Shown: positions 2,293 to 57,870 of the stretch, one piece after another
Layout of the letters: each line of letters starts with the position of its first letter
How positions within the stretch are numbered: the first letter of the stretch is position 1
IMG/VR virus record: IMGVR_UViG_3300048876_000002
Span: 1-63,226 of that record
Direction: 5' to 3' (one strand)
DNA length: 63,226 nt
Source: a virus
Translations under genes and position numbers: made by a program
Notes under the pieces: model-generated
What the model was told of the DNA's origin: nothing
The model's database searches: none
Seen by the model: the letters and a program-made list of their open reading frames with translations, nothing else

Positions 2293-2302
2293 CACACTCT
2301 CC

Positions 2303-2419
2303 TCAACCTCGGACCCAGCCTTTGAGTTTTATTTCTAGGCCGTCATCGTACTTCACGTCGATGGTCAAACTACCGAGACTCAACAGCCACAGCAGGTACC
2401 ATCCGAATAGTCTTGCCAT
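2303..2419 (-). CDS. Single-span membrane micro-protein, 38 aa
   Basis: ATG 2419 follows GAGGAGAGTGTG, identical to the leader of the downstream gene; the stop TGA at 2303 is part of that second leader. The product starts MARLFGWYLLWLLSLGSL, a hydrophobic segment of about 15 residues, then a short polar tail. A small inner-membrane protein of unknown role. Confidence 0.65.
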   Translation of the reverse strand: MARLFGWYLLWLLSLGSLTIDVKYDDGLEIKLKGWVRG

Positions 2420-2452
2420 CACACTCTCCTCGTTCAACGGGGTTGCGGGGCA

Positions 2453-2644
2453 TCAGGGTTGCTCGGGGTCAATATTCTCGAAGCCGATTATTTCCGGTAT
2501 GCACAAATCGTCACCGTCGCAACCTCCGCCGAGGCCGCCACCCAGAGCACTCCGCAATTCTGGGGATTCAACCAGTACCGATAAAGTCACTGGGTACACA
2601 TCGCCATTGGTGCGGATCAACTTCTTAATGAAAATTCTAACCAT
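2453..2644 (-). CDS. Small hypothetical protein, 63 aa
   Basis: ATG 2644 is preceded by AAGGA. The C-terminal half has a Gly-rich stretch (GGGLGGGCDGDD) followed by an acidic tail. Overlaps the 3' end of the upstream gene by 28 nt. Function not recognised. Confidence 0.6.
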   Translation of the reverse strand: MVRIFIKKLIRTNGDVYPVTLSVLVESPELRSALGGGLGGGCDGDDLCIPEIIGFENIDPEQP

Positions 2645-4276: not shown

Positions 4277-4726
4277 TTACGCCTTCGAGATTGCCACCTC
4301 TACCCTACTCGGTAGCCCAAAACCCTTTCTAACGCTGCACGCTACCACTTGGGCATCGTCTCGAAACACAATGCCCGTGAGCGAATCCAGAAGACCACGC
4401 AGCAGTTTATCCAGATCTGGTTTTGTGATCTTGTGCCGAACATCTTTCTTTGTAGACTTCGGCTTATCGAAGAAAAAGGAAGCCTCGACCGCGAGAGGGA
4501 TGTTTTCGAGCAGTCCAATTTTGGACTGATTCATCGCTACCTGAGCGGTCCCTGAAATCTCTTGGCGCCAGGGTTTCAGTTTCGAGTTATCGGAAGTGAT
4601 GATCGCCCTTTTCCACCCTTTAGGGATGAAGGCGCGGCTGGACCCTTGGGGCTGCGGGGTGCCGATTACCGTGAAGGTAATGAAGGCAGTCGGCTTGATT
4701 GTGTCGAAGAGTTCCGGCTGGGTCAT
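4277..4726 (-). CDS. rusA: RusA-type Holliday junction resolvase, 149 aa
   Basis: RusA enzymes are small dimeric, Mg-dependent nucleases that cut Holliday junctions and branched DNA, here probably during recombination or before packaging. The family signature is clear: residues 102-114 read KPDLDKLLRGLLD (acidic D104, D106 and D114), followed by the strand ending in FRDDAQV at 121-127 (D123, D124). Length matches the family (about 120-150). The start ATG 4726 overlaps the stop of the upstream ribbon-helix-helix gene as ATGA. A copy of the dispersed 16-bp palindrome lies inside this gene (4512-4527). It works alongside the ERF/YqaJ pair at 6.5-8.0 kb in recombination. Confidence 0.92.
   Translation of the reverse strand: MTQPELFDTIKPTAFITFTVIGTPQPQGSSRAFIPKGWKRAIITSDNSKLKPWRQEISGTAQVAMNQSKIGLLENIPLAVEASFFFDKPKSTKKDVRHKITKPDLDKLLRGLLDSLTGIVFRDDAQVVACSVRKGFGLPSRVEVAISKA
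4512..4527 (-). repeat. Dispersed near-palindrome, copy 1 (AGTCCAATTTTGGACT)
   Basis: Seven-base arms AGTCCAA/TTGGACT around a two-base centre. On the plus strand the centre is TT, so the AA version lies on the minus strand, the direction of transcription here. The other four copies, in rightward genes, have AA on the plus strand. Confidence 0.85.
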
Positions 4727-4884
4727 TTCGCCCTTCCATTGCTGTTTCGCGCTTGAATCGCTTCCTTAATAAGAACGCGAATCATTGCAGAAAGATTGCG
4801 ATCTTCTTGGACGGCGATCCGCGCAGCCTGTTTCTGAAGATCAGTCGGTATCCGGAGGCCGATGTATATCGTCGCTTTCTGCAT
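4723..4884 (-). CDS. Arc/CopG-like ribbon-helix-helix DNA-binding protein, 53 aa
   Basis: The product begins MQKATIYIGLRIPTDLQKQA, a short strand (residues 3-9) with alternating residues, followed by helix A (about 13-29) and helix B after a polar turn (N31-L32-S33, to about 47). This is the ribbon-helix-helix layout, in which dimers insert the beta ribbon into the major groove. P22 Arc is also 53 residues. The gene is first in the leftward operon and stands back to back with the rightward early promoter, the classic position of a phage regulator. Its stop overlaps the RusA start. I see no strong Shine-Dalgarno, only GAG 9 nt upstream. Identity as a regulator is inference; the fold is well supported by the pattern. 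Confidence 0.82.
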   Translation of the reverse strand: MQKATIYIGLRIPTDLQKQAARIAVQEDRNLSAMIRVLIKEAIQARNSNGRAK

Positions 4885-4914
4885 GAATGCTACTCTTGCA
4901 TACGAGCGCCCCTT

Positions 4915-4965
4915 TTGTCAACGGAAAAAAACAAACTACAAATACTGTAAAATAATAGTTGACAA
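4915..4965. promoter_or_regulatory. Divergent control region with inverted TTGTCAAC/GTTGACAA
   Basis: An exact 8-bp inverted repeat (4915-4922 and 4958-4965) places a consensus -35 hexamer TTGACA on each strand, about 43 bp centre to centre. An AT-rich stretch lies between. On the minus strand I find no convincing -10 at the usual spacing. The symmetry suggests a shared operator, probably for the adjacent ribbon-helix-helix protein. Confidence 0.55.
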
Positions 4966-4987
4966 GTTTTCCGCCTCATGCAATACT
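4959..4987 (+). promoter_or_regulatory. Rightward early promoter, sigma70-like
   Basis: TTGACA at 4959-4964 (6/6), 17-bp spacer, AATACT at 4982-4987 (4/6). It is the first promoter upstream of the rightward early operon, 36 bp before the ATG at 5023. Confidence 0.65.
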
Positions 4988-5022
4988 CGCTTCGTTGTTA
5001 ATCAAACCCTGGGAGGGGAAAT

Positions 5023-5238
5023 ATGACGGTCTTAGAAGGCAATCAATCGTATCGAGCAGCAATGACGATCCTGAAGACAGCACGGATGGCTCTGCTCGCC
5101 GAGAATGATGATGCTACCTATTACATGTTGGTTCATGCAAGCTATCAACTCACCGAGCAAGAGCATCGGGACATGAAAGCCAGTTTCGCTCACGAAGAGT
5201 TTTCGGCAGCCCCCATCGCGCCCTCCCAGGTACGTTGA
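5023..5238 (+). CDS. First rightward early gene, hypothetical, 71 aa
   Basis: ATG 5023 follows GGGAGGGG. Mostly helical with a Met/Ala-rich N-terminal half (KTARMALLAENDDATYYM) and a Pro-containing tail. Position immediately behind the early promoter suggests an immediate-early role; function unrecognised. Confidence 0.75.
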   Translation: MTVLEGNQSYRAAMTILKTARMALLAENDDATYYMLVHASYQLTEQEHRDMKASFAHEEFSAAPIAPSQVR

Positions 5239-5284
5239 ACTGCCGAGTACTCGATCCGGCTTACTACTTGGTCGGGTACTGAGC

Positions 5285-5299
5285 AGTCCAAAATTGGAC
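5285..5299 (+). repeat. Dispersed near-palindrome, copy 2 (AGTCCAAAATTGGAC)
   Basis: Intergenic copy, 23 bp before the ATG at 5308, AA centre on the plus (transcribed) strand. The terminal T of the right arm is replaced by G. Confidence 0.85.
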
Positions 5300-5307
5300 G
5301 ATAACTT

Positions 5308-5490
5308 ATGAATCCTCTTGATCCATGCTGGCAAGCGATAGCGGTACTCGATGCGTGCCGAGGAGACTTTCCGAAGGCTCTGGAACTGGCGAGAGTGGCG
5401 ATGGACCGAAGGATTCCGAGCGATGACGAATTTGAGTTTCGGTGTACGGTTTACGAGTTGTTGATGGGGATTGGGGGATATGAGTGTTGA
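5308..5490 (+). CDS. Small hypothetical protein, 60 aa
   Basis: ATG 5308; no strong ribosome site, and the palindrome copy at 5285-5299 occupies the position just upstream, which could affect its expression. The product (MNPLDPCWQAIAVLDACRGD) is helical. The next gene's GTG overlaps its 3' end. Confidence 0.6.
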   Translation: MNPLDPCWQAIAVLDACRGDFPKALELARVAMDRRIPSDDEFEFRCTVYELLMGIGGYEC

Positions 5491-5660
5491 AAGTCGGCGA
5501 CGAAGTTAGGCTTAAACTCGGATTGTCTGACAAGGGCGGACGTCGTGGAGTAGCCAAAATAGAACTTTTTTACAGTGACATCGACGGCGGAGTTCGCCTT
5601 GATAAGATGCTAGGCGGATTCTACTCATGGAACGTTAAAGATTTGGAGGCAGCACAATGA
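5484..5660 (+). CDS. Small SH3-like hypothetical phage protein, 58 aa
   Basis: GTG 5484 overlaps the previous stop and is preceded by GGGGG. The sequence VLKVGDEVRLKLGL, then RRGVAKIELFY and GGVRLDKMLGGFYSWN, alternates like a small beta barrel. The stop overlaps the next ATG (ATGA). Function unknown. Confidence 0.72.
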   Translation: MLKVGDEVRLKLGLSDKGGRRGVAKIELFYSDIDGGVRLDKMLGGFYSWNVKDLEAAQ

Positions 5661-5923
5661 CCGACGACACGAAGCAGATTCTCTCGCACCCGCTGATTCA
5701 GGGCGCAGTGTGGACCGCAACCGAGGAAGAGAGAGTCATGGACGAGCAGATCGCCATCGGACATGCAAGGCTGCTTCCAGTAGAGGAGAAGCGGCATTTC
5801 GCGGAATGCACTTGGATCAATGATGAAGGATACGACTGCGGTGCGGCGGCTGTCGTTCTGCTTTTGCCTAGCGGTGACGAAGGGCGCTGTCGTGGCCATA
5901 TTCAGAAAGGCGCGCAACTGTGA
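5657..5923 (+). CDS. Hypothetical protein, 88 aa
   Basis: ATG 5657 (preceded by GGAGG) overlaps the upstream stop. The C-terminal half has a Cys/His set (CTWINDEGYDC, then CRGH) that could bind one metal ion. No known family recognised. Confidence 0.75.
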   Translation: MTDDTKQILSHPLIQGAVWTATEEERVMDEQIAIGHARLLPVEEKRHFAECTWINDEGYDCGAAAVVLLLPSGDEGRCRGHIQKGAQL

Positions 5924-6126
5924 CCTCTCAGACTCATGCCGCGATATTACTCCTACAGCAATTCCTCCTGCGGGCCTTGTCTGAGCGCAAGCCATCGCGT
6001 GTGTGGTGGGAAGCAATGCGTGGAATCCGACAGAAGCAGGCCGATCAGGAGTTCGCGGAAATGGAACTGGCTCACGGAACGGTGCGAGAGCCGGGAAAGA
6101 TCGACTGGCGAAAACTTCCGTTTTGA
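5920..6126 (+). CDS. Small hypothetical protein, 68 aa
   Basis: GTG 5920 overlaps the preceding stop (GTGA). Helical N-terminus (AAILLLQQFLLRALSER) and a basic/acidic C-terminus. Unknown. Confidence 0.65.
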   Translation: MTSQTHAAILLLQQFLLRALSERKPSRVWWEAMRGIRQKQADQEFAEMELAHGTVREPGKIDWRKLPF

Positions 6127-6136
6127 GGAGCGATTT

Positions 6137-6277
6137 ATGCAACGCGAATCGTCCGGTTACACCGTTGTTTCATGGCTACTGTTCTGGACCGTAGCGGGTG
6201 GCGTGGCTTGGTATGGCATCTTGCGCGTCATGGCCTGGGCGTTGCGGGCGATGGGCGTTGTGATTACGGGAATCTAG
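6137..6277 (+). CDS. Single-span membrane protein, 46 aa
   Basis: ATG 6137 follows TGAGGAG. After ten polar residues nearly everything is hydrophobic (VVSWLLFWTVAGGVAWYGIL and on). Small early inner-membrane protein of unknown role. Confidence 0.65.
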   Translation: MQRESSGYTVVSWLLFWTVAGGVAWYGILRVMAWALRAMGVVITGI

Positions 6278-6299
6278 CTTAATAAAGGGGGCGCATTTA

Positions 6300-6527
6300 A
6301 TGCTCAGTTCAATCGCAGATCGGGCGCTTTGCTCAAGTCTTGAAGGAGATGGCGGATATGTGCGAGGCATTCAGATAGCTCTATTTGATACTGGAGATGC
6401 TACGCGGGTTGGAGTATGGCTCCTTCTAACGCAGAGATTTGACCACCCTGACGGCCTCGGAGATACGCTTTCTGAGGCATTGGAAGATGCAGCGCACAGA
6501 GTAAGACTGGAGAAACGACATGCCTAA
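6300..6527 (+). CDS. Hypothetical protein, 75 aa
   Basis: ATG 6300 is preceded by AAGGGGG. Alternating strand/helix pattern (GVWLLLTQRFDHPDG then a terminal helix). Overlaps the ERF gene start by 8 nt. Not recognised. Confidence 0.72.
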   Translation: MLSSIADRALCSSLEGDGGYVRGIQIALFDTGDATRVGVWLLLTQRFDHPDGLGDTLSEALEDAAHRVRLEKRHA

Positions 6528-7284
6528 AACAATTGACGCGCAACCGTCACTGATAGCAGAGGACATACCCGCCCAGCCGCAAGCTTTAGTGCGGAACCAC
6601 TTTGATCTGCTGGCTCTAGCCATTCAGGATAAGGCCAACATCGACGTTATCGAGCGCCTGAGTGCCTTGCAAGAACGAGCGATGGACCGCGATGCCGAGC
6701 AGCAATTCAATGAAGCAATGTGCGCGGCGCAAGGTGAAATTGGCCTAATCGCGCCCGACCTGACGAATCCTCAAACGAATAGCAAATATGCTTCATTTAA
6801 GGCCGTCGATAAGATCGTGCGCCCGGTCTATCTGAAACACGGATTTAGCCTGTCGTTCAATAATGGCGACGAACCGCGCCCAGAAATGGTACGGATGATT
6901 TGTTACGTATCTCACCGGGCAGGGCACACGCGCAAGTATCAAATGGACATGCCGGCGGATGGGAAGGGAGCGAAGGGCGGCGCTGTGATGACAGCGACCC
7001 ATGCCACTGGGGCGGCGAACTCCTACGGCAAGCGGTACATCGTCCTGAATATTTTCAACATCCCTGTTGGAGTTGACACTGATGGCAATGAGGGGCAAGT
7101 TGAGCAGTCTTGGCTTAAGACTCAGTTAGAGGAAATCGGACGCTGCGAGACGGAAGAAGGTCTTTTGGCTGCATTCCGTTCGGCTGGGCGTGAGGCACTA
7201 GCAATTCAGGATATCGAAGCATACCGACAACTCAACAAGGCCAAGAATAGCCGCAAAAAGGAATTACAGAAAGGCGGCGCATGA
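6520..7284 (+). CDS. erf: ERF-family single-strand annealing protein, 254 aa
   Basis: ERF proteins form rings on single-stranded DNA and anneal complementary strands, the recombinase partner of an exonuclease; P22 Erf also circularises incoming phage DNA. The core is visible at residues 88-110 (SKYASFKAVDKIVRPVYLKHG), followed by strands and the conserved SYGKRYIVLNIFNI at 168-181. Length fits the family (about 200-260). The gene overlaps the exonuclease start at 7281, so both are produced together. Confidence 0.9.
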   Translation: MPKTIDAQPSLIAEDIPAQPQALVRNHFDLLALAIQDKANIDVIERLSALQERAMDRDAEQQFNEAMCAAQGEIGLIAPDLTNPQTNSKYASFKAVDKIVRPVYLKHGFSLSFNNGDEPRPEMVRMICYVSHRAGHTRKYQMDMPADGKGAKGGAVMTATHATGAANSYGKRYIVLNIFNIPVGVDTDGNEGQVEQSWLKTQLEEIGRCETEEGLLAAFRSAGREALAIQDIEAYRQLNKAKNSRKKELQKGGA

Positions 7285-8042
7285 TGGCGGTTAGCAAGAA
7301 AGAACGCCAAGAGTTCCGCAATCTCACGCAGAGCACGCCTGAATGGTTGGCCGCTAGGCGTGGGCGCGTCACAGCTTCACGATGCAGCGATGTGATTCGC
7401 CGCTTGAAAAGCAAAGTTTTGAAAGACGGCACAGTAAAACCGGGAGAGTATTCGGCTGATCGTTACAACTACTTAATGGAGTTAGTTGTGGAGCATTTGA
7501 CCGGACGCTCTATGGATACCTATGTCAATCAAGCGATGGAGTGGGGAATCGAGCAGCAGCCCTTCGCGCAAGCGGCTTACGAAATGAGGCAAGATGTATC
7601 AGTGGAGTCCGTGGGACTGATTATTCACCCAGAACAAGAGAGCTTCGCAGCTAGTCCGGATGGGACTATAGATCAGGATGGCCTTGTAGAGTTCAAGTGC
7701 CCGACTACTCGCGTGCATCTCGAATACCTCAAGGCTGGGGTTGTGCCGGACGATTATATCCCTCAGATGAACGCGCAGTTAGCGTGTATGCCGGAGCGGG
7801 AGTATTGCGACTTTGTGTCCTTCGACCCGCGCGTGCCTTTTGGGATGCAATTATTTATTAGACGGCATTACCGGGATAAGGGGCGCATCGGAGAGTTGGA
7901 ATGTGAAGTCGAGACATTCTTAGGCGAGTTAGCGAGCGAACTCTTGGCACTGTCGCTGGTGCAACCGATACAATCTAAAGCCGTAATGCCCTCAGAGGCG
8001 GATGAGGAAGTCGAGGCAGAGTTGTTCGGGACGGAGGCGTAA
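7281..8042 (+). CDS. YqaJ/lambda-Exo-like recombination exonuclease, 253 aa
   Basis: The 5'-3' exonuclease partner of the ERF annealase. The family signature WLAARRGRVTAS is at 22-33, then G89-E91, and the PD-(D/E)xK catalytic set SPDG (D127), E137 and K139 in VEFKCP. The C-terminal helix ends in an acidic tail. Start is one of two adjacent ATGs (7281 or 7284) overlapping the ERF stop. With RusA this gives the phage a complete recombination set. Confidence 0.92.
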   Translation: MMAVSKKERQEFRNLTQSTPEWLAARRGRVTASRCSDVIRRLKSKVLKDGTVKPGEYSADRYNYLMELVVEHLTGRSMDTYVNQAMEWGIEQQPFAQAAYEMRQDVSVESVGLIIHPEQESFAASPDGTIDQDGLVEFKCPTTRVHLEYLKAGVVPDDYIPQMNAQLACMPEREYCDFVSFDPRVPFGMQLFIRRHYRDKGRIGELECEVETFLGELASELLALSLVQPIQSKAVMPSEADEEVEAELFGTEA

Positions 8043-8043
8043 C

Positions 8044-8364
8044 GTGCTGTTTAAACGCAAAGGCGATAAGACCCGCTATGCATTTGTGGATACGGACTGC
8101 ATCGGGCGTGAGTGTTGGGCGGCTGGGATGTACCAGCATCGTTCTCCGATGTCCGGCGGAGGTTCACGCAATACTGGAAGCCCTGACTCGCCGTGCTGCT
8201 TAAATCGTGCTTATCGTGGATGTCCTGAGGGGCCGGTCGGACAGCAGCAAGTTCCTTGCGACTGTGAAGGCAATCCACACACCTTGCATACAATTACTGG
8301 TCTGCCAGTATTTAATCCTGACCTAGCGCGGAAGAGAAAAGCGGAAGGCTGGAGACCCGCATGA
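8044..8364 (+). CDS. Cys-rich hypothetical protein, 106 aa
   Basis: GTG 8044 starts right after the exonuclease stop. The product has CIGREC, CCLNRAYRGC and CDCEGN clusters, plausible for a zinc protein. It overlaps the next ATG by 4 nt. Unknown. Confidence 0.68.
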   Translation: MLFKRKGDKTRYAFVDTDCIGRECWAAGMYQHRSPMSGGGSRNTGSPDSPCCLNRAYRGCPEGPVGQQQVPCDCEGNPHTLHTITGLPVFNPDLARKRKAEGWRPA

Positions 8365-8600
8365 TTCACTCCGACATAATCCGTTTCTTATTCGATCCTC
8401 TGACCGGGGGACCACCAAGGGCATTCGAGTGCACACTGGTTACAGGACTTGGGTACAGTTCCGAGAAGGTCTGCGGATTAGTTACGCGCACGCTTTCCGG
8501 GATGCGAGCACATCAGCGCATAGTGCACGACTTCACGCCTCAATCAAAACTGCCATTGACTAGAAAGGAATCAGATGACTCGCTTCCTGTGGGCGATTGA
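8361..8600 (+). CDS. Possible zinc-finger-like small protein, 79 aa
   Basis: ATG 8361 overlaps the preceding stop. Residues C24, C38 and the pair H50/H55 (AHQRIVH) make a loose C2H2 arrangement. Low-certainty fold; no function assigned. Confidence 0.62.
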   Translation: MIHSDIIRFLFDPLTGGPPRAFECTLVTGLGYSSEKVCGLVTRTLSGMRAHQRIVHDFTPQSKLPLTRKESDDSLPVGD

Positions 8601-8754
8601 AGAACTGGAACTACATGCTAAGACGTGGCAATTACTACCGAATACTGTGCAGGTTCGCCGCCATCATTGCGAGTTCGACATCAAACAATTGCGTGAGGAT
8701 TATCCGGCAGAGCGGTACAGGATTGTGAAGTATGAAAGGAAAGGACTCCGATGA
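8575..8754 (+). CDS. Small basic hypothetical protein, 59 aa
   Basis: ATG 8575 is preceded by AAAGGA. Helical, basic at the end (ERYRIVKYERKGLR). Its stop overlaps the next ATG as ATGA, supporting real translation. Function unknown. Confidence 0.65.
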   Translation: MTRFLWAIEELELHAKTWQLLPNTVQVRRHHCEFDIKQLREDYPAERYRIVKYERKGLR

Positions 8755-8903
8755 CGTACTTAAAACTGATCTGGTTTGAGGGCGACCTACGATTCCTGAC
8801 TCGGAACACGATCATCGACGTTCTGATCCGCAAGCACGACCGGAGCGAGGAGTTCTGGGCCTGGGTGGACCGGGCGCTCAGTTTTAGGCGAAAAACGGCC
8901 TAA
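8751..8903 (+). CDS. Small hypothetical protein, 50 aa
   Basis: ATG 8751 overlaps the upstream stop; AAAGGA lies just upstream. Basic and hydrophobic residues alternate (MTYLKLIWFEGDLRFLTR). The 108 bases that follow hold only a CCTAGCTAGG palindrome at 8931-8940 and no gene I can support. Confidence 0.62.
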   Translation: MTYLKLIWFEGDLRFLTRNTIIDVLIRKHDRSEEFWAWVDRALSFRRKTA

Positions 8904-9011
8904 GAGCCTCGGAGAGCGTCTGAGGGGTAGCCTAGCTAGGGGTAAGGCGTAATTATCGCGCCACGGGGCAAGAAACAAGGCCAGCGACGGGGTTAAGGGA
9001 GGATTTAACCG

Positions 9012-9182
9012 ATGAAAGACGAACTACGCCCGACTCCAGACGAGCACTGGAGCATTGCTGACTTTTACCGGAGGCCAACTGTCGAGCATAAGCGCGAGTC
9101 CAAAATTGGACTGTTCTGGCGGCTGGTTATGGCTGGCTGTGTTGTAATGCTGGGCGTAGTCGTGTGGAGGTTGTTCGCGTGA
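9012..9182 (+). CDS. C-terminally anchored membrane protein, 56 aa
   Basis: ATG 9012 follows GGGAGG. The first 35 residues are polar; residues 36-52 (LVMAGCVVMLGVVVWRL) form a transmembrane segment. A palindrome copy (9097-9112) lies inside the coding region and encodes S-K-I-G-L. Role unknown. Confidence 0.65.
   Translation: MKDELRPTPDEHWSIADFYRRPTVEHKRESKIGLFWRLVMAGCVVMLGVVVWRLFA
9097..9112 (+). repeat. Dispersed near-palindrome, copy 3 (AGTCCAAAATTGGACT)
   Basis: Perfect 16-bp copy, inside a small membrane-protein gene and 106 bp before the promoter that precedes the replication genes. AA centre on the plus strand. Confidence 0.88.
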
Positions 9183-9202
9183 AACTTGGCTGAAGAAAGT
9201 TC

Positions 9203-9232
9203 TTTACTTTTCGAGCGGCGTATGCTCATAAT
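9203..9232 (+). promoter_or_regulatory. Probable promoter for the replication genes
   Basis: TTTACT at 9203-9208 (4/6), an 18-bp spacer and CATAAT at 9227-9232 (5/6). It sits in a 131-bp gap before the initiator gene. Confidence 0.5.
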
Positions 9233-9238
9233 ATTACG

Positions 9239-9288
9239 CCTACGCCCGTAGGTTTTCGCCCCTGTCCTGCCGACTAGACCCCGGCAGG
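9239..9288 (+). other. Two leader hairpins upstream of the initiator gene
   Basis: CCTACG-CC-CGTAGG at 9239-9252 followed by TTTT, then CCTGCCG (9266-9272) pairing with CGGCAGG (9282-9288) and flanked by partly pairing C- and G-runs. In the transcript these lie between the promoter and the ATG at 9314. They may act as an attenuator or protect the mRNA. Confidence 0.5.
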
Positions 9289-9313
9289 CGGGGGCAGTAA
9301 AGGGTCTTAATAT

Positions 9314-10057
9314 ATGGAAATTAGAGATCGTCGTGGCGGTTTTCTTTGGCTAAATAATGAAATCATTGATGGATATGCTCCTCAGATGGGATCTTCTTCA
9401 CTTCTTGTCTATATGTTCTTGTGTCGTTATGCAAATAATGACACGGCAGCCTGTTGGCCGAGCCAGATTACTATAGCTGACTTTTGCCACTGTTCAGAGC
9501 GAACTGTTCGCTCTGCGCTTAAAGAATTAGAGGGCTTATGCCTCATTGAGATCAGAAGAAGAAAAGTTGGAGATATAACCCAAAATACCTATACCCTCCT
9601 GAATGTCAGAACCAACACAGACCTCTACCCCGATCACGAATCAACCGGCAAATTATTGCCGCTTACTCTAATACCAACCGGCAACCACGAACCCGACCAA
9701 CCGGCAACCACGAACCCCCTAACAAGACTTATAGAACAAGACTTAAAAGATAATCACTTTTTACCTATTTGGGTTCCAAAGGAAAACTGGGATGGATTCG
9801 TTGAGATGAGACGAAAAATGCATAACGCTCCATTCACGAATCGGGCGAAAAAGTTGGCCATTGCAGAATTAGAAAAGCTCGTCATCCAAGGGCAAGATGC
9901 TGCCCGCGTAATAGATCAATCGACAATGCGCGGCTGGCGCGGGTTCTTCCCGATCACAGGTAACGGCAACGGGCATAAAGCGGTTGATCCAGGATATGAA
10001 TCGCAAAGCGTAATCCGTAAACGCGAACTCGAAGCGCGAAAGGCCCAAGGTTTATGA
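9314..10057 (+). CDS. Winged-helix replication initiator-like protein, 247 aa
   Basis: Residues about 27-83 form a helix-turn-helix/winged-helix domain of the kind found in phage initiators (WPSQITIADFCHCSERTVRS, then wing residues IEIRRRK). A low-complexity Thr/Pro linker follows (about 100-140) and a C-terminal helical domain (WDGFVEMRRKMHNAPFT...). With a DnaB-like helicase 4 bp into its end, it most likely binds the origin and loads helicase. The linker region is AT-richer than its surroundings and, as in lambdoid O genes, might carry the origin, though I see no clear iterons. ATG 9314 has no good Shine-Dalgarno. Confidence 0.78.
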   Translation: MEIRDRRGGFLWLNNEIIDGYAPQMGSSSLLVYMFLCRYANNDTAACWPSQITIADFCHCSERTVRSALKELEGLCLIEIRRRKVGDITQNTYTLLNVRTNTDLYPDHESTGKLLPLTLIPTGNHEPDQPATTNPLTRLIEQDLKDNHFLPIWVPKENWDGFVEMRRKMHNAPFTNRAKKLAIAELEKLVIQGQDAARVIDQSTMRGWRGFFPITGNGNGHKAVDPGYESQSVIRKRELEARKAQGL

Positions 10058-11352
10058 GCACAGAGGTTAGCCACGATGCGGAGCGTAGTGTATTAGGTTT
10101 ATTCCTGATAGACCCAAAAGCCTTTGATGAGGCGATGGTGTTGGGATTAACCTCTGACGACTTCTCATTGGAGTCACATCGAAAGATATTCACCCACTGC
10201 TGCCTGCTGGCGGAAACCTCTAGCAATATAGATCTTCTCACAGTCGTAACGTCCTTGGACCGGACGAAGGAACTAACTTCGGTAGGGGATGCTTCTTATG
10301 TAGCCGATCTATTGATGGGCCTTTCGGAATTGAGTTCAATTAAATCTTACGTTCGCATTGTGAAAGAACACGCGGCGCAGAGAAAGATTGACCGCGCCTG
10401 CCTCACTGTGCAAGGTCAGCTTGCGGAAGGGGTGTCATCAGCAGAAGCAATATCGTATTTGACCGATCAGATGTTGCAAGTCCAATCTGGGAGCGATACA
10501 GCGCCCGCACGTCGCGTGCTTGAGTTTTCTGACCAAACATATGCGCGCTGGTCCGCCGTTGCGGATGGAGACTCAGATCTTATCGGGTTGTCTACCGGTG
10601 TGCCCTCTCTCGATCTAAGCACTACTGGAATTCGAGAAAAGGAATTATGGGTTATTGGTGGAAGAACCGGAGATGGCAAAACTAATCTGGCGTTACAAAT
10701 GCTGGCTGCGAACTGCCGCCAAGATATTCCCACCGGAATATTCTCCATCGAAATGCCAAAGGAATCATTGCTTCATAGGCTCTGGGCTGGGGAAGGGCAA
10801 ATAAACTTCAATCATATCCGCTTCCCTCGAAGGCTCTCCGTCGAAGTCAAGATGCAGATTCAGCGAGCAATGATGGAGGTGGCGCGCTGGCCGCTGCATG
10901 TTGTAGAGGAAAGTAATATCTCAATTTCTAAATTGTTGGCGAAGGCACGTCTTTTGATTCGGCGCGAGAATGTCAAACTGATCGTCGTCGATTACGTCCA
11001 ATTAATTAACGCCAATGGTCGTGAAGAACGAGAACGCATCACGAAGATTTCCAAAGCTCTGCAATCGCTGGCGAAGGATACTGGAGTGCCGGTAATCGCT
11101 CTAAGCCAACTGACGCGGCCTAAAGACGGCAATGAAAATAATCGTCCCGTAAAGTACAACCTGAAAGAGTCCGGCAGTTTAGAGAATGATCCAGACGTAA
11201 TTATCCTCATCTACCGCCCGGTTGATGATCGCAAGATGAAAACGGGTGAAGATGAGTTGATTGTCGAGAAGCAGCGCAGTGGTCTTCCAAGCATCGAGAG
11301 AGTAGCGTTCTTGCCCTGGCTTCGATTCGCAGAAAGAGAGATGAGCAGATGA
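10054..11352 (+). CDS. DnaB-like replicative helicase, 432 aa
   Basis: Hexameric 5'-3' helicase that unwinds the replication fork. The N-terminal domain (about 1-105, EVSHDAERSVLGLFLIDP) is the DnaB_N helical bundle; the RecA-like motor has Walker A GGRTGDGKT at 202-210, Walker B VVDYVQL at 311-317 and the SQLTRPKDG motif near 351. Length is normal for phage DnaB (about 430-460). It overlaps the initiator stop by 4 nt and the following regulator start by 4 nt. Confidence 0.93.
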   Translation: MSTEVSHDAERSVLGLFLIDPKAFDEAMVLGLTSDDFSLESHRKIFTHCCLLAETSSNIDLLTVVTSLDRTKELTSVGDASYVADLLMGLSELSSIKSYVRIVKEHAAQRKIDRACLTVQGQLAEGVSSAEAISYLTDQMLQVQSGSDTAPARRVLEFSDQTYARWSAVADGDSDLIGLSTGVPSLDLSTTGIREKELWVIGGRTGDGKTNLALQMLAANCRQDIPTGIFSIEMPKESLLHRLWAGEGQINFNHIRFPRRLSVEVKMQIQRAMMEVARWPLHVVEESNISISKLLAKARLLIRRENVKLIVVDYVQLINANGREERERITKISKALQSLAKDTGVPVIALSQLTRPKDGNENNRPVKYNLKESGSLENDPDVIILIYRPVDDRKMKTGEDELIVEKQRSGLPSIERVAFLPWLRFAEREMSR

Positions 11353-11603
11353 AGTTTAGTGAGCGACTCAGGCGACTTCGTGATTCATTGGGACTGACAA
11401 ATTCACAGATTGCGGAGATATTCGGAGTAGATGACATTCAAACTGTGCGCAGGTGGGCGGCTGGTGAATCGAACCTGGCTCCTGAGTTTCGCGCTACTCT
11501 TCTGCGACTCGAAGCGGATAACTTGCCTGCGCTGTCTCCGAAGTTGCGCCCTGAAACCGTGGCGGCATTCTACGCGGGGCGCAAGAGGATGAGGGCGGCA
11601 TGA
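11349..11603 (+). CDS. XRE-like helix-turn-helix protein, 84 aa
   Basis: Residues 5-45 (RLRRLRDSLGLTNSQIAEIFGV then TVRRWAAG) give the five-helix XRE pattern. Overlaps the helicase stop (ATGA) and the next start. Could regulate early genes; no target is evident. One of three candidate regulators, with the ribbon-helix-helix and Fis-like proteins. Confidence 0.75.
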   Translation: MKFSERLRRLRDSLGLTNSQIAEIFGVDDIQTVRRWAAGESNLAPEFRATLLRLEADNLPALSPKLRPETVAAFYAGRKRMRAA

Positions 11604-11824
11604 CTCTTCCCGCTATTCAGCAGCGATCTGTCGAGGAATTAATCGACCGCAATATCCAGCATCACCATCGCGGATTGGATGAGATAGTCGAGCGCTTTCG
11701 CAATTCGGTCATTGTCAGGGCGCTGGCGCTTAATCATGGGAACCTAGAGCGAACGGCGGATGTCTTGGGAATAGAGTACACAGAATTAAAGGGATGGATG
11801 ACTCGGTACGGAATCAAAGCATGA
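11600..11824 (+). CDS. Fis/NtrC-type HTH protein, 74 aa
   Basis: The C-terminal half (ALALNHGNLERTADVLGIEY then LKGWMTRYGI) matches the Fis-type helix-turn-helix normally found at the end of NtrC-family activators: 'GN...A..LGI...L...YGI'. Standing alone it could be a nucleoid-like or accessory DNA-bending protein. Start ATG 11600 overlaps the previous stop. Confidence 0.75.
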   Translation: MTLPAIQQRSVEELIDRNIQHHHRGLDEIVERFRNSVIVRALALNHGNLERTADVLGIEYTELKGWMTRYGIKA

Positions 11825-12150
11825 GCCTGTCTATCCATCCCGCCGCGCCCGATCATCCGTATATGCACTGGATGAAAAAAGTTAAGATGCGACTGGCGGA
11901 ATTGCAGCGCGTACCGAATCCAGATATTAGGACACGCGGAGAGATCAAGGAGTTAAAGGCGCGTCTGGGGCTTAATCGCGTTCCATCCAGTCCCGCAGCT
12001 ATGTACAACCGCAAACGATCGGATCGGCTGAAGCGAGAGGGCCGGTGTGTAGATTGCACAACGCGAACGCGAAGTAAGTACGCTAGGTGTTTCAAATGTA
12101 GAAAGAAAGCGGCCAAGCGATCTGAGAAAGCGCGGGAGTTAGGATTATGA
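11821..12150 (+). CDS. Basic zinc-ribbon-like protein, 109 aa
   Basis: ATG 11821 overlaps the upstream stop (ATGA). The C-terminal half is strongly basic and has CVDC and CFKC about 14 residues apart, a four-Cys zinc knuckle. Likely nucleic-acid binding; function unknown. Confidence 0.7.
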   Translation: MSLSIHPAAPDHPYMHWMKKVKMRLAELQRVPNPDIRTRGEIKELKARLGLNRVPSSPAAMYNRKRSDRLKREGRCVDCTTRTRSKYARCFKCRKKAAKRSEKARELGL

Positions 12151-12163
12151 GAGAGGAAACGAA

Positions 12164-13180
12164 GTGAAAGCGCCCTTTCCATGGTTCGGCGGTAAGTCGC
12201 GAGTCGCCGATATAGTCTGGCAGCGCTTCGGAAACGTGCCGAATTATTGTGAGCCGTTCTTTGGGAGTGGAGCAGTATTGCTCGAACGTCCACACGATCC
12301 ACACACCGAAACCGTCAACGATCTCGATTGCTTAGTGGCGAATTTCTGGAGGGCCGTGCAGTCCGCGCCGGACGAAGTAGCCGAGCACGCCGACAATCCC
12401 GTCAATGAAGCGGATCAGCACGCACGGCACTTCTGGCTGTGTCATCAGGAAGAGTTTCGAGAGCGGATGAAAGTTGAGCCGGATTACTATGATTCCAAGA
12501 TTGCAGGATGGTGGGTATGGGGGCAATGTATTTGGATTGGTTCAGGATGGTGCCGCACACAGCTACCTCACCTCGGGAACGCGGGAACAGGGATAAACCG
12601 ACAGCTACCTCACCTCGGGACCGCGGGAACAGGAATTCATCGTAAGCTACCTCACCTCGGGAACGCGGGAACAGGGGAGTCGCCATGCCTAAGCGACCTC
12701 ACCTCGGGAACGCGGTCGCGCCAGCAGATCACAGCCTACATGCAAGAACTCGCGGAGCGCTTGCGGAATGTTCGAGTGTGTTGCGGAGACTGGAGCCGTA
12801 TCTGCGGCCCTTCGCTAACGATCAAGCATGGCATTACGGGTGTCTTCCTCGATCCACCTTATGCGGACGAAGCCGAGAGAACAGAAGGTCTCTACTCTGC
12901 CGACGACCTGCAAATCGCCCATGCAGTGCGGGAGTGGGCTATCGAGTGGGGAAGCGATCCAAGAATGCGAATCGCGCTTTGCGGCTACGACGGCGAGCAC
13001 TCGATGCCGGACTCGTGGGAATGTGTTCACTGGAAGGCCATAGGCGGCTACGGATCACAAGGCGATGCGGACGGGCAAGGCCGCGCAAACTCCGCGAAGG
13101 AGCGAATCTGGTTCAGTCCGCACTGCTTGAGGGTAACGTTATTCTCGGAACTAATTGGAATGGAGGAGTTAGTACCATGA
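12164..13180 (+). CDS. D12-class DNA adenine methyltransferase (Dam-like) with internal repeats, 338 aa
   Basis: Transfers a methyl group from SAM to N6 of adenine, probably to protect phage DNA from host restriction. Motif FPWFGGK (5-11), the SAM-binding EPFFGSGA (30-37) and catalytic DPPY (230-233) are all present. Between them, residues 132-173 are three 14-residue repeats of the form QLPHLGNAGTGIxR; the DNA repeat continues into a fourth copy read in another frame (LSDLTSGTRS). I recall similar PHLGNAG repeats in other phage D12 methylases, so they may be a family feature, but the out-of-frame fourth copy is odd. Start: an ATG at 12147-12149 is excluded by an immediate stop; I infer GTG 12164 with GAGAGGAAACGAA upstream. 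Confidence 0.9.
   Translation: MKAPFPWFGGKSRVADIVWQRFGNVPNYCEPFFGSGAVLLERPHDPHTETVNDLDCLVANFWRAVQSAPDEVAEHADNPVNEADQHARHFWLCHQEEFRERMKVEPDYYDSKIAGWWVWGQCIWIGSGWCRTQLPHLGNAGTGINRQLPHLGTAGTGIHRKLPHLGNAGTGESPCLSDLTSGTRSRQQITAYMQELAERLRNVRVCCGDWSRICGPSLTIKHGITGVFLDPPYADEAERTEGLYSADDLQIAHAVREWAIEWGSDPRMRIALCGYDGEHSMPDSWECVHWKAIGGYGSQGDADGQGRANSAKERIWFSPHCLRVTLFSELIGMEELVP
12563..12717 (+). repeat. 42-bp tandem repeats in the methylase gene
   Basis: Units beginning CTACCTCACCTCGGGAACG start at 12563, 12605 and 12647 (period 42 bp = 14 codons). A fourth partial unit starts at 12694, 47 bp later, so it is read in a different frame. Confidence 0.85.
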
Positions 13181-13392
13181 TGCGTCTTGAGTATGATGAG
13201 CAAAAGAGGTTCGTTCTGCCGCGCCGGGTATGCGGGAATCGTGTGGCAATCTCGGTTAGTGCGGAGACGTATTGCACGTATGATTACGGGCATGAAGGGA
13301 ACTGTCAACCACCGGAAAGTCAGGTAGTAACTCGTATTCCCTGCAATTGCCTTGACTGTCGAGCCAAACGGCAAGGGATAACGCGCCAATGA
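13177..13392 (+). CDS. Small Cys-rich protein, 71 aa
   Basis: ATG 13177 (followed by a second ATG) overlaps the methylase stop and is preceded by TGGAGGAG. Cys/His residues (CGN, CTYDYGHEGNC, CNCLDC) suggest a zinc ribbon. Its stop overlaps the next methyltransferase start, so it is sandwiched between two modification genes and might assist one of them. Confidence 0.72.
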   Translation: MMRLEYDEQKRFVLPRRVCGNRVAISVSAETYCTYDYGHEGNCQPPESQVVTRIPCNCLDCRAKRQGITRQ

Positions 13393-14339
13393 CAATCGAC
13401 CTGTTCGGGCATCAAACTGTGGACAAATTGCCGGGGGGCGCGATGTGTCAGCGCTTCATAGAACCTCCATTCACAACTCTCGACCAGCGCGCTGGACGTT
13501 GGCAGGATAGGAAACGGGATTGGCTGGCTTTGGGCTTACAGGGCGAATTAGGGCGGTCGGCGAGTCCTGGGGGTTCTGCTATGCCAGCGGCGGATTATTC
13601 GCAGGGTGAGCGCGGTGACGGCCGTGGCGATGCTTTAGGCGTTGACGGTAACGCCTCTAGCGTCTTTGATCCTGTCATTTGCGAACTGATTTACTCATGG
13701 TTCATGCCAGAGAAGCCCACGCTCGGAATCCTCGACCCCTTCGCCGGAGGCAGTGTTCGCGGCATCGTAGCTGGACGGCTCGGCTACCAGTATGTGGGCA
13801 TCGACCTCCGGAAAGAGCAGATTGACGCAAACGTGAAACAGGCGCTCGACATTCCCTGCCAGCCTAACCCTCACTGGATATGCGGCGACAGCGCGAATCT
13901 GGAAAGCATGGTGGGAGATGAATACGACCTGATGTTTACGTGCCCCCCATACTGGAATCTTGAACGCTACTCGGATGATCCACGCGACATATCTACTCTT
14001 GATCGCTGGCAAGAATTTGTAATCAAGTACCAGCGCATCATGCTACTTGCCGCGCGTCGGCTCAAGTCGCAACGCTTTGCTGTAGTGGTTGTGGGGAACA
14101 TCCGCGACGATGAAGGTTTTATCCGCGACATGCGGCAACCCACGGCCTCGGCCATGCTGGGCGCCGGATTAAAACTTTACAATGAATTCGTATTACTCAC
14201 ACCAATCGGTTCTCTGCCGTTGCGTGTGAATGGACAATTTACGAAGGGGCGCAAGGCAGGAAGTGCTCGTCAGTACGTGATGTGTTTCTTTCGCGGCAAT
14301 CCTGAGTCGATTCGATGTGATTTCACGGAGTTCGATTAA
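13389..14339 (+). CDS. N4/N6-type DNA methyltransferase, 316 aa
   Basis: SAM-binding motif DPFAGGS at 116-122 and catalytic CPPYW at 185-189, in the order seen in alpha/gamma-type amino-methyltransferases; the Cys-Pro-Pro-Tyr variant is common for N4-cytosine or N6-adenine enzymes. N-terminal 110 residues are poorly conserved and probably serve target recognition. Overlaps its neighbours at both ends (ATGA and TAATG). A second DNA-modification enzyme beside the D12 methylase. Confidence 0.88.
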   Translation: MTIDLFGHQTVDKLPGGAMCQRFIEPPFTTLDQRAGRWQDRKRDWLALGLQGELGRSASPGGSAMPAADYSQGERGDGRGDALGVDGNASSVFDPVICELIYSWFMPEKPTLGILDPFAGGSVRGIVAGRLGYQYVGIDLRKEQIDANVKQALDIPCQPNPHWICGDSANLESMVGDEYDLMFTCPPYWNLERYSDDPRDISTLDRWQEFVIKYQRIMLLAARRLKSQRFAVVVVGNIRDDEGFIRDMRQPTASAMLGAGLKLYNEFVLLTPIGSLPLRVNGQFTKGRKAGSARQYVMCFFRGNPESIRCDFTEFD

Positions 14340-14926
14340 TGAGCAAGACACTCGCGAAACGTTCCCCAGAAGTTCTGGCACCAAAGGAACATGGGAATTC
14401 TTGCACGTGCTTCAATTGCCGCGACAAGCGTGTACGAGATTGGGTACGGACAGTCCAAAATTGGACGGCCATAGCGCGAGATTGCGTAGGTGTAAAGGTC
14501 GATAAGAGCTATGAGCAGGGAGGGTTCAAGACTTGGGAAGATTGGCTACTGAGCGCCGCGCCGGAGGAAAAGAGCCGTAGTTACTTGTATCTCGTGTCGA
14601 AGAATTATCTGGAATTGACCGGACTGATTCCAGAGAATGAAATTGACGGAGTAAAACTCGGGTGCGTTACGGTCTTAAAGCAGACCTCGCCGGAGATTCG
14701 GCGTGACCCAAGAGTGTTAGCGGCAGCGAAGGATAAGCCAGAAAAACTACGTGAAGTTCTGGAGCGCGATTTCCCGGAACAGCATATCGAAACGACCGTT
14801 AACAAGCGTTGCCGGTTCCCGCGTTCGATGTGGGAGCATACGATTGAGCCGAAGTACGAAACGTTTTTACTGATAGAGCCTGATGCTGGTTTTGAATCCT
14901 TTATTGAATGGCTTTGCACGGAATAA
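14339..14926 (+). CDS. Hypothetical protein with N-terminal CxC..C zinc-like motif, 195 aa
   Basis: ATG 14339 overlaps the preceding stop (TAATG). HGNSCTCFNC near residues 18-27 resembles half a zinc ribbon; the central part is helical (KTWEDWLLSAAPEEKSRSY) and might form a DNA-binding domain. A palindrome copy lies inside (14452-14466). Function not recognised. Confidence 0.72.
   Translation: MSKTLAKRSPEVLAPKEHGNSCTCFNCRDKRVRDWVRTVQNWTAIARDCVGVKVDKSYEQGGFKTWEDWLLSAAPEEKSRSYLYLVSKNYLELTGLIPENEIDGVKLGCVTVLKQTSPEIRRDPRVLAAAKDKPEKLREVLERDFPEQHIETTVNKRCRFPRSMWEHTIEPKYETFLLIEPDAGFESFIEWLCTE
14452..14466 (+). repeat. Dispersed near-palindrome, copy 4 (AGTCCAAAATTGGAC)
   Basis: Inside a coding region, AA centre on the transcribed (plus) strand, last arm base changed to G as in copy 2. 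Confidence 0.85.
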
Positions 14927-14929
14927 ATA

Positions 14930-15283
14930 ATGCCTGTGAATGCTAAACACTCTCTCCGCTACGACCTCGTTTGCGATGGTGCGGTGCGTCGATATCCTAA
15001 CGGGCGCGAGGTCTGTTGCTCGACTCCAAAGGGGCGCGCAGAATACGAACGCCGCACCGAAGAGATGCGCTTGCGCCAGCACAATATTTGCGCGAGAGGG
15101 AACCACTTCATTGTCAATCCGACTTTTGATCATGGGCGAAGCCGTGGCGGCGGTGGTGGGTTTCGTGATGACCGGATCGTAAATGAGGAGACTGGCGAAA
15201 CGATGAGTGGGTGTTCTTGTTGGTATTGTAATGGGCAGGCTGGGAGTAAGCCATTAACGCGCGGGACTGAATCCCGCGTGTAG
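14930..15283 (+). CDS. HNH-like nuclease, 117 aa
   Basis: The motif order FDHGRSRGGGGGFRDDRIV (about 66-84) then CSCWYCNGQAGSK (about 95-107) fits a divergent HNH fold, with the catalytic His in F-D-H and the zinc or Asn element in C-W-Y-C-N. An N-terminal Cys pair precedes it. Phage HNH proteins often act in packaging or recombination; this copy lies in the early region. The gene end forms the first arm of a structured RNA (15277-15345). Confidence 0.7.
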   Translation: MPVNAKHSLRYDLVCDGAVRRYPNGREVCCSTPKGRAEYERRTEEMRLRQHNICARGNHFIVNPTFDHGRSRGGGGGFRDDRIVNEETGETMSGCSCWYCNGQAGSKPLTRGTESRV

Positions 15284-15345
15284 TCTATTGAACCGCATAG
15301 ATTCTAGTGGACGAAGGTCCGGAACGGGACTTAATAGGCTACACG
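15277..15345 (+). ncRNA. Candidate three-way-junction RNA element
   Basis: A 13-bp outer stem pairs 15277-15289 with 15333-15345 (one G-U pair). Inside are two hairpins: 15293-15300 with 15304-15310 (7 bp, one bulged A, loop ATT) and 15314-15320 with 15327-15332 (6 bp, one bulged G, loop GGAACG). It ends just before the ribosome site of the gene at 15359. The stop codon of the HNH-like gene is in the outer stem. No known riboswitch or ribozyme core was recognised. Confidence 0.5.
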
Positions 15346-15358
15346 GAGGATTCAGAAT

Positions 15359-15784
15359 ATGGCGACGAAGAAGAAATCAGCACCGAAAGAGAAAGTCAAG
15401 AAAGGTCCGAAGCAGAGTGCATTGCCGGGGATGGAGGATCGTTCATTGGAAGAACTCGAATCCAAGGCAGAAGAGTACGCCGAAACCCGCGATGAGCGTA
15501 TGAAGCTCACAACCGCAGAGGGCGAGTTGAACGACGAACTTCTGGCCTTGATGAAGAAACACAAGAAGGTCGAATATCATCACGGCGACGTTCACTGCTG
15601 GGTGCAGTCCATAGATGAGAAAGTGAAAGTGAAGATTGGCGACCTGCCGGCCAAGAAGACGACGCAGAAGGCAACAGACTTCACGCCGCCCGAAGACTTC
15701 GCGCCGCCCGAACCCGATGCGGCTCCCGCTCCCGAGGTCCAGACCGAAACTGAAGATCAACCCGAACCCGTAGTTATGCAATAA
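15359..15784 (+). CDS. Hypothetical phage protein with coiled coil, 141 aa
   Basis: ATG 15359 follows GGAGGA. Lys-rich N-terminus, charged helices (SLEELESKAEEYAETRDERM), then HKKVEYHHGDVHCWVQS, a pattern I associate with small phage proteins encoded near recombination genes, and a Pro/Glu-rich tail. Its expression may be controlled by the folded RNA immediately upstream. Confidence 0.75.
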   Translation: MATKKKSAPKEKVKKGPKQSALPGMEDRSLEELESKAEEYAETRDERMKLTTAEGELNDELLALMKKHKKVEYHHGDVHCWVQSIDEKVKVKIGDLPAKKTTQKATDFTPPEDFAPPEPDAAPAPEVQTETEDQPEPVVMQ

Positions 15785-15793
15785 CGAAACGCT

Positions 15794-15919
15794 ATGGAAC
15801 TGACTCAGGCACAGCGCATTGCGAAACGGCGTCAGGAAATCGACGTAGTAGTGTACGAAGAATGGCTGCTGAGTATGGGCTACAAGCGTGTGCCTGAGTT
15901 CTGGGAGCGGTACTACTGA
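15794..15919 (+). CDS. Micro-protein, 41 aa
   Basis: ATG 15794; the stop overlaps the next ATG. Single charged helix ending in Tyr/Trp residues (EEWLLSMGYKRVPEFWERYY). Supported by the stop/start overlap only. Confidence 0.5.
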   Translation: MELTQAQRIAKRRQEIDVVVYEEWLLSMGYKRVPEFWERYY

Positions 15920-16089
15920 TGAAGTGCTCGAATCCAAAATGTCCGCGCCAGAGGGTAAAAGGTCGTAGCAAGTGTAGGCGTTGCTTGCTGGCGAATGCCC
16001 TCTGGATGGCGCGGCGAAGGCCGGTAGTAATCCGCAGTCCAAAATTAGACAGAACGGTACAGAAGTATTTCACGAGGAGCGCGGCATGA
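15919..16089 (+). CDS. Basic zinc-ribbon micro-protein, 56 aa
   Basis: ATG 15919 overlaps the preceding stop. MKCSNPKC and CRRC give a four-Cys knuckle in a very basic chain. The palindrome copy at 16036-16050 is inside it. Stop overlaps the next ATG (ATGA). Confidence 0.6.
   Translation: MKCSNPKCPRQRVKGRSKCRRCLLANALWMARRRPVVIRSPKLDRTVQKYFTRSAA
16036..16050 (+). repeat. Dispersed near-palindrome, copy 5 (AGTCCAAAATTAGAC)
   Basis: One mismatch in the right arm (TTAGAC). AA centre on the plus strand. This is the rightmost convincing copy. Confidence 0.75.
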
Positions 16090-23197: not shown

Positions 23198-23400
23198 TCC
23201 GCACAGCCAAGTTTATCTTCTGCGACAACGAGCACGGCATGGTTACCTACCCCGATCTGTTCGCCGATACCGAAGTGTTGCGCCAGCATTTTATCGACTC
23301 TCCGAGCCTGAAGGCTTTACGCCAAGATGCCAAGAAAGCGGGTTGGAGTCGCCACAACGGTGCGGACTATTGCCAGCAATGCACGGAGGGCGGGATATGA
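23194..23400 (+). CDS. IS passenger protein 3, Cys-containing, 68 aa
   Basis: ATG 23194 overlaps the preceding stop. FCDNEHG near the start and CQQC near the end could bind a metal. Overlaps the transposase start (ATGA). Unknown. Confidence 0.68.
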   Translation: MIRTAKFIFCDNEHGMVTYPDLFADTEVLRQHFIDSPSLKALRQDAKKAGWSRHNGADYCQQCTEGGI

Positions 23401-27952: not shown

Positions 27953-27954
27953 GT

Positions 27955-57786: not shown

Positions 57787-57870
57787 TGTGAAATCTCCTT
57801 GAGTTCACAGCCGACTTGCCGGATAATGAAGTTGCGAGTCTCATTGCGGCTACGGCTGTGATGGATTCAA

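Follow-up and report, generated by a model that had tools for sequence, protein, structure and literature searches.

A dispersed 16-bp dyad in a soil phage and its relatives, and a small protein with a ParB-like predicted fold as its candidate binder

A soil phage carries, scattered over a part of its genome, copies of a 16-letter dyad (consensus NGTCCAA-WW-TTGGACN), which raises the question of what these sites are and what might bind them. The window, by which we mean the whole analysed stretch of 63,226 nucleotides, had been credited in a first-pass annotation with five copies, and all five are present where it had placed them (Table 1). It was also right that they lie mostly inside genes (four in ORFs, one intergenic), that they are confined to 4.5-16 kb, which is unlikely by chance (p 0.005), and that within the window AA is on the transcribed sense in 5/5 copies. 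A scan of the window at up to 3 mismatches returned 10 strand-matches, against a mean of 0.44 and a maximum of 2 in shuffles, and the sole additional place was a weak 3-mismatch match at 17178. Since the motif was derived from the window sequence itself, its recurrence in other records is the stronger proof; judged from the window by itself, de novo detection is weak (5 copies versus at most 4 in controls). Shuffles and recurrence together rule out a chance origin. A protein motif is ruled out as well, because the ORF-borne copies are read in three frames, as SKIG (in two genes), VQNW and SPKLD, and one copy is intergenic. The codons of the rusA site are kept in the window and in records G001 and G003 (4/4 identical versus 18/92), and orthologues of the ORF containing site 5 also contain sites in G001 and G004. 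The five sites of the window are real and conserved, and the site set is dispersed, selected, concentrated near early genes and probably bound by protein.

Table 1. Dyad sites and associated genes in the window
Feature	Position	Strand	Sequence or character	Context
Site 1	4512..4527	-	AGTCCAAAATTGGACT, 0 mismatches	within rusA (4277-4726)
Site 2	5285..5300	+	AGTCCAAAATTGGACG, 1 mismatch	between ORFs 5023-5238 and 5308-5490
Site 3	9097..9112	+	AGTCCAAAATTGGACT, 0 mismatches	within ORF 9012-9182
Site 4	14452..14467	+	AGTCCAAAATTGGACG, 1 mismatch	within gene of proposed binder
Site 5	16036..16051	+	variant AGTCCAAAATTAGACA, 2 mismatches	within ORF 15919-16089
rusA	4277..4726	-	RusA-like Holliday junction resolvase gene	contains site 1
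Conserved ORF	15919..16089	+	56 aa	contains site 5
DNA methyltransferase	13389..14339	+	phrog_12517	adjoins A1 gene
Proposed binder, A1 family	14339..14926	+	195 aa; ParB-HTH-like predicted fold, no Pfam match	contains site 4

The same site system is common to about a dozen phage records, comprising other phage contigs and the cultured Acidobacteriota phages Tunturi 1 and Tunturi 2. Longer genomes carry 5-15 copies (15 in G016, 9 in Tunturi 1, 8 in Tunturi 2), a 5.7-kb piece (G004) has two, and sites are also present in G003, a 14-kb contig from which the gene of the A1 protein described below is absent. Twenty-five of the 63 sites are intergenic, where 12.8 were expected; this tally and the gene strands of the orientation tally were made with a gene finder of our own that overlooks small genes, 15919-16089 among them. 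The sites also lie at shorter distances from the A1 gene than expected at random (p 0.001), and this closeness and the intergenic excess are regulation-like. Over the 63 sites one and the same C to T change is tolerated in either half-site, which is dimer-like, and the centres in relatives are AT or TA in about a quarter. In de novo palindrome controls, 15 of 60 control contigs reached 4 or more copies, mostly of A/T-rich words; for G018, in which 8 were observed, one of eight Markov copies reached 6. One record considered as a further variant (G011) was discarded, having neither a dispersed family nor an A1 homologue.

A homologue of A1 is encoded in all long records that bear sites; the family is present in the window, G001, G002, G004, G005, G016, Tunturi 1 (gp51), Tunturi 2, G018, G019 and, weakly, G006. 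Dispersed palindromes are present in all records with an A1 homologue, and the homologue was found in 0 of 28 single-hit records. Three of the genomes (G016 and both Tunturi phages) were located by searching with the A1 protein alone, and their sites were found afterwards. The protein is small, unannotated and previously unnamed; clear homologues measure only about 187-230 aa, and none was found in bacterial genome contigs. Six of 11 genomes have a site within the A1 gene itself (1.44 expected). The diverged homologues of G018 and G019 accompany another palindrome, CTGCAA-N2-TTGCAG, and one diverged homologue accompanies a 17-bp dyad spacing. The methyltransferase gene is beside A1 in the window, G001, G004, G018 and G019, and methyltransferase relatives encode divergent A1 homologues that are accompanied by another motif. 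The shift in specificity is drawn from two groups.

Could the sites instead be the target of a host factor or of another regulator of the phage, with A1 simply co-inherited? Early genes are generally linked, and linked genes inherited together could yield co-occurrence without binding. However, the motif does not exceed chance in genomes of the presumed host class (6 exact single sites in 399 genomes), and its reading as a host motif was rejected; at up to one mismatch, 2 sites occur among 7 host-class genomes, with no enrichment. As for phage regulators, the ribbon-helix-helix (4723-4884) and XRE-like (11349-11603) proteins had been put forward as binders, but neither tracks the sites, whereas A1 does: in blastp searches at E 1e-5, a cutoff at which short proteins can escape detection, the ribbon-helix-helix protein was found only in the window, G001 and G002, and a Fis-like protein in the window and G001. 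The motif and the A1 protein, moreover, change together, and we regard a different binder as unlikely.

The predicted structure of A1 may be that of a DNA-binding protein. Residues 1-140 of the model resemble the parS-binding domain of ParB/Spo0J/Noc: the best 11 Foldseek rows were all ParB/Spo0J chains, at weak E values of 0.8-3.6, and structural comparison gave Z 9.8 with Spo0J (rmsd 3.9 over 112 residues) and Z 9.5 with Spo0J-parS, in a range (below about 13) that is uncertain for helical proteins. Raf1, which is not known to bind DNA, also scored 8.4 against the model. Foldseek matches of an earlier, poorer model had E values of 3.4 or higher in the PDB and of 0.09 or higher in a viral library. 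Comparison of the A1 profile with chromosomal ParB, represented by eight proteins from acidobacterial genomes, gave no match, as did a trimmed repeat, a weak comparison in which one ParB row was kept, and a search of A1 with Pfam HTH_ParB. A 16-bp palindrome, a ParB-type fold in the model and a site within the protein's own gene would all suit parS-like centromere or genome-organising sites, on which a ParB-like protein gathers, condenses or segregates genomes, perhaps those of a phage-plasmid. Such a role is nevertheless improbable in our judgement, since the ParA-type ATPase (PF13614) and the CTPase domain ParB_N (PF02195) were each found in 0 of 12 records, no A1 homologue was found in plasmids, and the sites are scattered, not gathered in one cluster, with an intergenic bias.

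The reading we lean towards is that the 16-bp dyads are bound by the phage's own 195-aa protein, acting locally to dampen early transcription; we infer binding, dimerisation and repression along the following lines. A1 would bind DNA through the ParB/Noc-type helix-turn-helix domain predicted by the model, with no CTPase domain, and monomers may be paired through a small helical domain at the C-terminus of the same model. One dimer would occupy each dyad, with each monomer on one half-site (AGTCCAA). As there is no clamp domain, no sliding would be expected and each site would act locally, which would explain why the sites are scattered. Bound dimers would serve as roadblocks or silencers that damp transcription of the early region, and A1 would be autoregulated, since its own gene contains a site and its transcription would also be damped.

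The sites had at first been likened to the stoperators of mycobacteriophage L5, directional sites at which the immunity repressor of a temperate phage halts elongation. The dispersal in this comparison stands, as in both cases sites of a phage-encoded protein (here a candidate) are spread across the genome, and the mostly intragenic, uniformly oriented copies of the window, the early-region bias and the intergenic enrichment would agree with it. The directionality does not extend to relatives, where the centres are unoriented (AA:TT on the coding sense 21:12, p 0.16) and where, although sites are kept in close relatives, some relatives have copies in late genes and the orientation is mixed. 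The stoperators of L5 and other Cluster A phages are asymmetric, oriented 13-mers to which a monomer binds and which lose function in reverse orientation (PMC9283540), unlike the present dyads, whose candidate binder is also a different protein. Nor was a role in immunity or lysogeny supported: tyrosine integrase (PF00589) was found in 0 of 11 records, which may be fragments, small serine recombinases were limited to 3 of 12, and multi-site prophages were found in none of the 399 genomes of presumed host class, while the cultured relatives, the Tunturi viruses, are lytic. We consider an L5-type system quite doubtful. RNA hairpins or regulatory RNA elements in the transcript would suit the sense-strand bias in the window and a six-pair stem that is possible by inspection, but they are very improbable, as pair 5-12 is C-A in 8/63 and U-G in 6/63 sites, unaccompanied by compensatory changes, positions 1 and 16 can pair in just 24/63, and no Rfam match was found.

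Among known systems, the orphan 17-bp dyad repeat found in Cluster O mycobacteriophages comes closest (PMC4351075). Corndog and Firecracker carry dispersed dyads (TGTTCGG-N3-CCGAACA), part intergenic, part intragenic and denser in the leftward operon, described in 2015 without an identified binder or an assigned purpose; these phages have no integrase or parAB, and the repeat is absent from the host genome (PMC4351075). Our own de novo scan of a 31-kb piece of Firecracker found 27 dyads, one inside the HTH gene gp75. The present sites are likewise many near-identical dispersed dyads with an unoriented A/T-rich centre, both intergenic and intragenic, with no integrase or ParA found and a motif that is not a host motif. 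They differ in repeat sequence, Cluster O has a higher copy number, and the scanned 31 kb holds no A1 homologue (A1 profile against Firecracker 40-71 kb, nothing at E < 0.4). ParB/Noc with parS and NBS (PMC7383237) and KorB with OB (PMC11790492) resemble our case in their palindromic sites, which are 16 bp for NBS and OB, and in a similar predicted DNA-binding fold, and by eye the S-R of the recognition helix in the GTCCAA group matches S172-R173 of ParB; unlike them, A1 has no CTPase domain, no ParA and no sequence-level homology detected, and its sites are scattered over an apparently lytic phage. In SPbeta, MrpR binds SPBRE, an element repeated at many places in the phage genome (PMC10516654), and the likeness is that of one phage protein (here a candidate) with an element repeated genome-wide; SPBRE, however, sits in promoter regions, and MrpR is a recombinase-like protein that maintains lysogeny (PMC10516654).

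More tentatively, A1 may represent a new family of phage proteins, small, ParB-like and devoid of a CTPase domain, in which a parS-binding fold has been turned into dispersed, autoregulated silencing in apparently lytic Acidobacteriota phages. At least two specificities for DNA and two spacings of the dyad would be represented, and the orphan Cluster O repeats could be of the same kind, with another binder. A candidate binder can now be named for the scattered palindromes of the present phages, one that changes together with its site, and because Tunturi 1 and 2 are cultured the question is open to laboratory testing. If confirmed, the finding would mean that phages have reused a fold of the chromosome-partition type for genome-wide control without a sliding clamp.

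All five copies of the 16-bp dyad (GTCCAA and TTGGAC half-sites) located by the first-pass annotation are present in the window, a virus record 63,226 bases long, against 0.44 strand-matches expected at up to three mismatches. They lie mostly inside genes, as it had described: four fall within ORFs and one is intergenic. Since the four ORF copies are translated in three different frames, the conserved thing is the DNA itself. The early module of the window comprises Erf/RecE-exonuclease/O/DnaB, and further genes encode a RusA resolvase, methyltransferases, terminase and portal; neither a tRNA nor an Rfam match was found in the window.

A scan of IMG/VR for the exact 15-mer returned 81 stretches, about the number expected by chance on a rough estimate. 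A few phage contigs nevertheless carry several copies each: G001 (73.6 kb), G002 (60 kb), G003, G005 (41 kb) and G006 (28 kb). Allowing at most one mismatch in NGTCCAANNTTGGACN, we counted 5 sites in the window, 12 in G001, 5 in G002 (two of them imperfect, which may be chance matches), 3 in G003, 2 in G004 (from the same sample as G003), 10 in G005 and 2 in G006, which has an additional 17-bp form with a three-base spacer in nine copies. The variant AGTCCAAAATTAGACA is common to the window and G001. Contig G011, suspicious at first, has neither sites nor the protein described below.

The sites are associated with a protein family. Comparison of ORFs showed one family common to the window, G001, G002, G004 and G005, represented in the window by the 195-aa protein A1. 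A search with A1 added one contig, G016, and among 50,697 phage records retrieved only Tunturi 1 (E 1e-3) and Tunturi 2 (8e-3), phages of the acidobacterium Tunturiibacter, which the G005 homologue matches at E 9e-10 and 1e-8. These three genomes, picked by A1 alone, were then shown to carry 15, 9 and 8 sites, a prediction from the protein that was borne out. An A1 homologue was found in none of 28 other records, each entered through a single 15-mer match and drawn from those of the 81 stretches, in a check that recovered both positive controls, G001 and G016. A profile of the A1 family, whose members match it by construction, detected divergent homologues in contigs G018 (stretches L118-L120, E 1.6e-27), G019 (L121, 3.9e-29) and G006 (4.7e-5). 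G018 and G019 lack GTCCAA sites (count 0 in G018); a different palindrome built on the same plan, CTGCAA-N2-TTGCAG, is dispersed through them in 8 and 6 copies. In de novo palindrome counts, 15 of 60 control contigs reached a top count of at least 4, mostly with A/T-rich words. The very distant homologue in G006 directly follows DnaB. A1 adjoins the same methyltransferase family in the window, G001, G004, G018 and G019, the gene order in the first three being reversed with respect to the last two.

The sites are also under selection. In rusA, whose products in G001 and G003 are 80 and 74% identical to that of the window, codons of invariant residues are identical in all three genomes in 18 of 92 cases overall versus 4 of 4 in the site core. 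In a 56-aa gene, 15 of 30 codons are identical overall and 5 of 6 agree in the site region, the sixth differing at a tolerated position. Moreover, a site lies within the A1 gene itself in 6 of 11 genomes versus 1.44 expected (Poisson ~0.003), an excess at five distinct positions that is weaker if G001 and G004, which share a position, are counted once. Sites cluster closer to the A1 gene than randomly placed ones would (combined p 0.001), driven by the window, G016 and G018; G002, G006, G019 and Tunturi 1 taken singly show no effect.

Most likely, a dimer of A1 binds each dyad. Among 10 members scanned, no Pfam family was convincing (best stray E 0.005) and PHROG gave stray weak matches only. 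A second AlphaFold2 model, made from eight sequences headed by the G001 protein, reached a mean pLDDT of 87; its top 11 Foldseek rows were ParB or Spo0J chains at weak E values (0.8-3.6). VIA-align listed Spo0J 1vz0_B (Z 9.8, rmsd 3.9, 112 residues), Spo0J-parS 4umk_C (Z 9.5) and ParB-parS 6t1f_D (Z 8.9), a small lead since Raf1 6kkm_E also appeared (Z 8.4); model residues 146-188 matched plasmid pCXC100 ParB 3no7 weakly (Z 4.3 over 43 residues). Profile comparison of A1 with ParB gave no match, nor did HTH_ParB match the A1 proteins, its one weak phage match lying in G002 outside A1. The APRSRSY segment of the GTCCAA group aligns gap-free, by eye, to ParB G170-K171-S172-R173, of which R173 is described as one of four residues setting parS versus NBS preference (PMC7383237). 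At that position S-R is found in the GTCCAA group, to which Tunturi belongs, and the two carriers of the CTGCAA dyad show S-Y (G018) and S-H (G019), a correspondence between two groups in a by-eye alignment. The main alternative is an organising or segregating role of A1 with its sites; ParA and ParB_N were found in none of 12 records. As the clamp domain is absent, the A1 dimer would act locally, where bound.

The sites had been read as directional and likened to L5-type stoperators, which are described as 13-mers that lack symmetry, bind a monomer and lose function on reversal (PMC9283540). An asymmetric, direction-dependent site is not what we found: coding-sense AA:TT centres are 26:12 (p 0.03) when the window is counted and 21:12 (p 0.16) when it is not, with Tunturi 2 dropped as a near copy of Tunturi 1 and three sites lacking a clear gene strand omitted, and 16 of 60 oriented sites have an AT or TA centre. 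The same C to T change is tolerated in both half-sites and no compensatory pairs were seen, a pattern that fits a DNA-bound dimer and not an RNA stem. Intergenic sites number 25 of 63 versus 12.8 expected locally, according to a gene finder that overlooks some small genes. Seven of the nine Tunturi 1 sites are in annotated genes; two overlap stop codons, starting within TAG stops with the dyad abutting the gene ends. Restriction to the early region holds in this window, and is a feature of it, since several relatives have some late-gene copies.

The host of the window is probably an acidobacterium, judging from its leftward transposase-like gene, closest to Acidobacteria MAG proteins (78-83%), and from the named relatives, which infect one. 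Both transposase-like genes sit inside the apparent phage genome. Among 399 genomes of the presumed host class, six single exact sites occur, about chance, and thus indicate neither a host motif nor a multi-site prophage. A tyrosine integrase was found in none of 11 records; of 12 records, three, the window not among them, encode a small serine recombinase. Lytic infection is reported for the Tunturi viruses, of which only Tunturi 3-5 have annotated integrase/recombinase genes; the main text does not use the word "repressor" (PMC11924767).

Positions of features in the window and in related records
Record	Feature	Position	Strand	Basis
Window	A1 gene	14339-14926		
Window	A1 and methyltransferase	13389-14926		
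L118 (G018)	A1 and methyltransferase	9309-10906		
G019	A1 and methyltransferase	26159-28213		
L110 (G006)	very distant A1 homologue	1808-2608		
Window	56-aa gene	15919-16089		
Window	transposase-like gene	23397-24323	+	reading of sequence
Window	transposase-like gene	56839-57786	-	reading of sequence
G002	small serine recombinase	57626-58084		
G005	small serine recombinase	5312-5755		
G016	small serine recombinase	11610-12059		
L136 (Tunturi 1)	site at stop codon	9300-9315		
L137 (Tunturi 1)	site at stop codon	3730-3745 (record 53730-53745)		
L207 (Firecracker 40001-71000)	17-bp repeat in gp75 gene	6969		

The five site sequences and the GTCCAA/TTGGAC palindrome had no match in literature whose coverage mostly lacks subscription journals. 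The nearest parallel is a 17-bp dyad scattered through the genomes of Cluster O mycobacteriophages, an orphan repeat to which the paper describing it assigns neither function nor binder (PMC4351075). Firecracker shows the same pattern as A1, with a 17-bp repeat within the gene of its helix-turn-helix protein gp75, a candidate binder of the Cluster O repeat. KorB with its OB sites (PMC11790492) and MrpR with SPBRE (PMC10516654) offer analogies. Bound locally as a dimer, A1 would target the early transcription units and its own gene, where it may repress as a roadblock or silencer.
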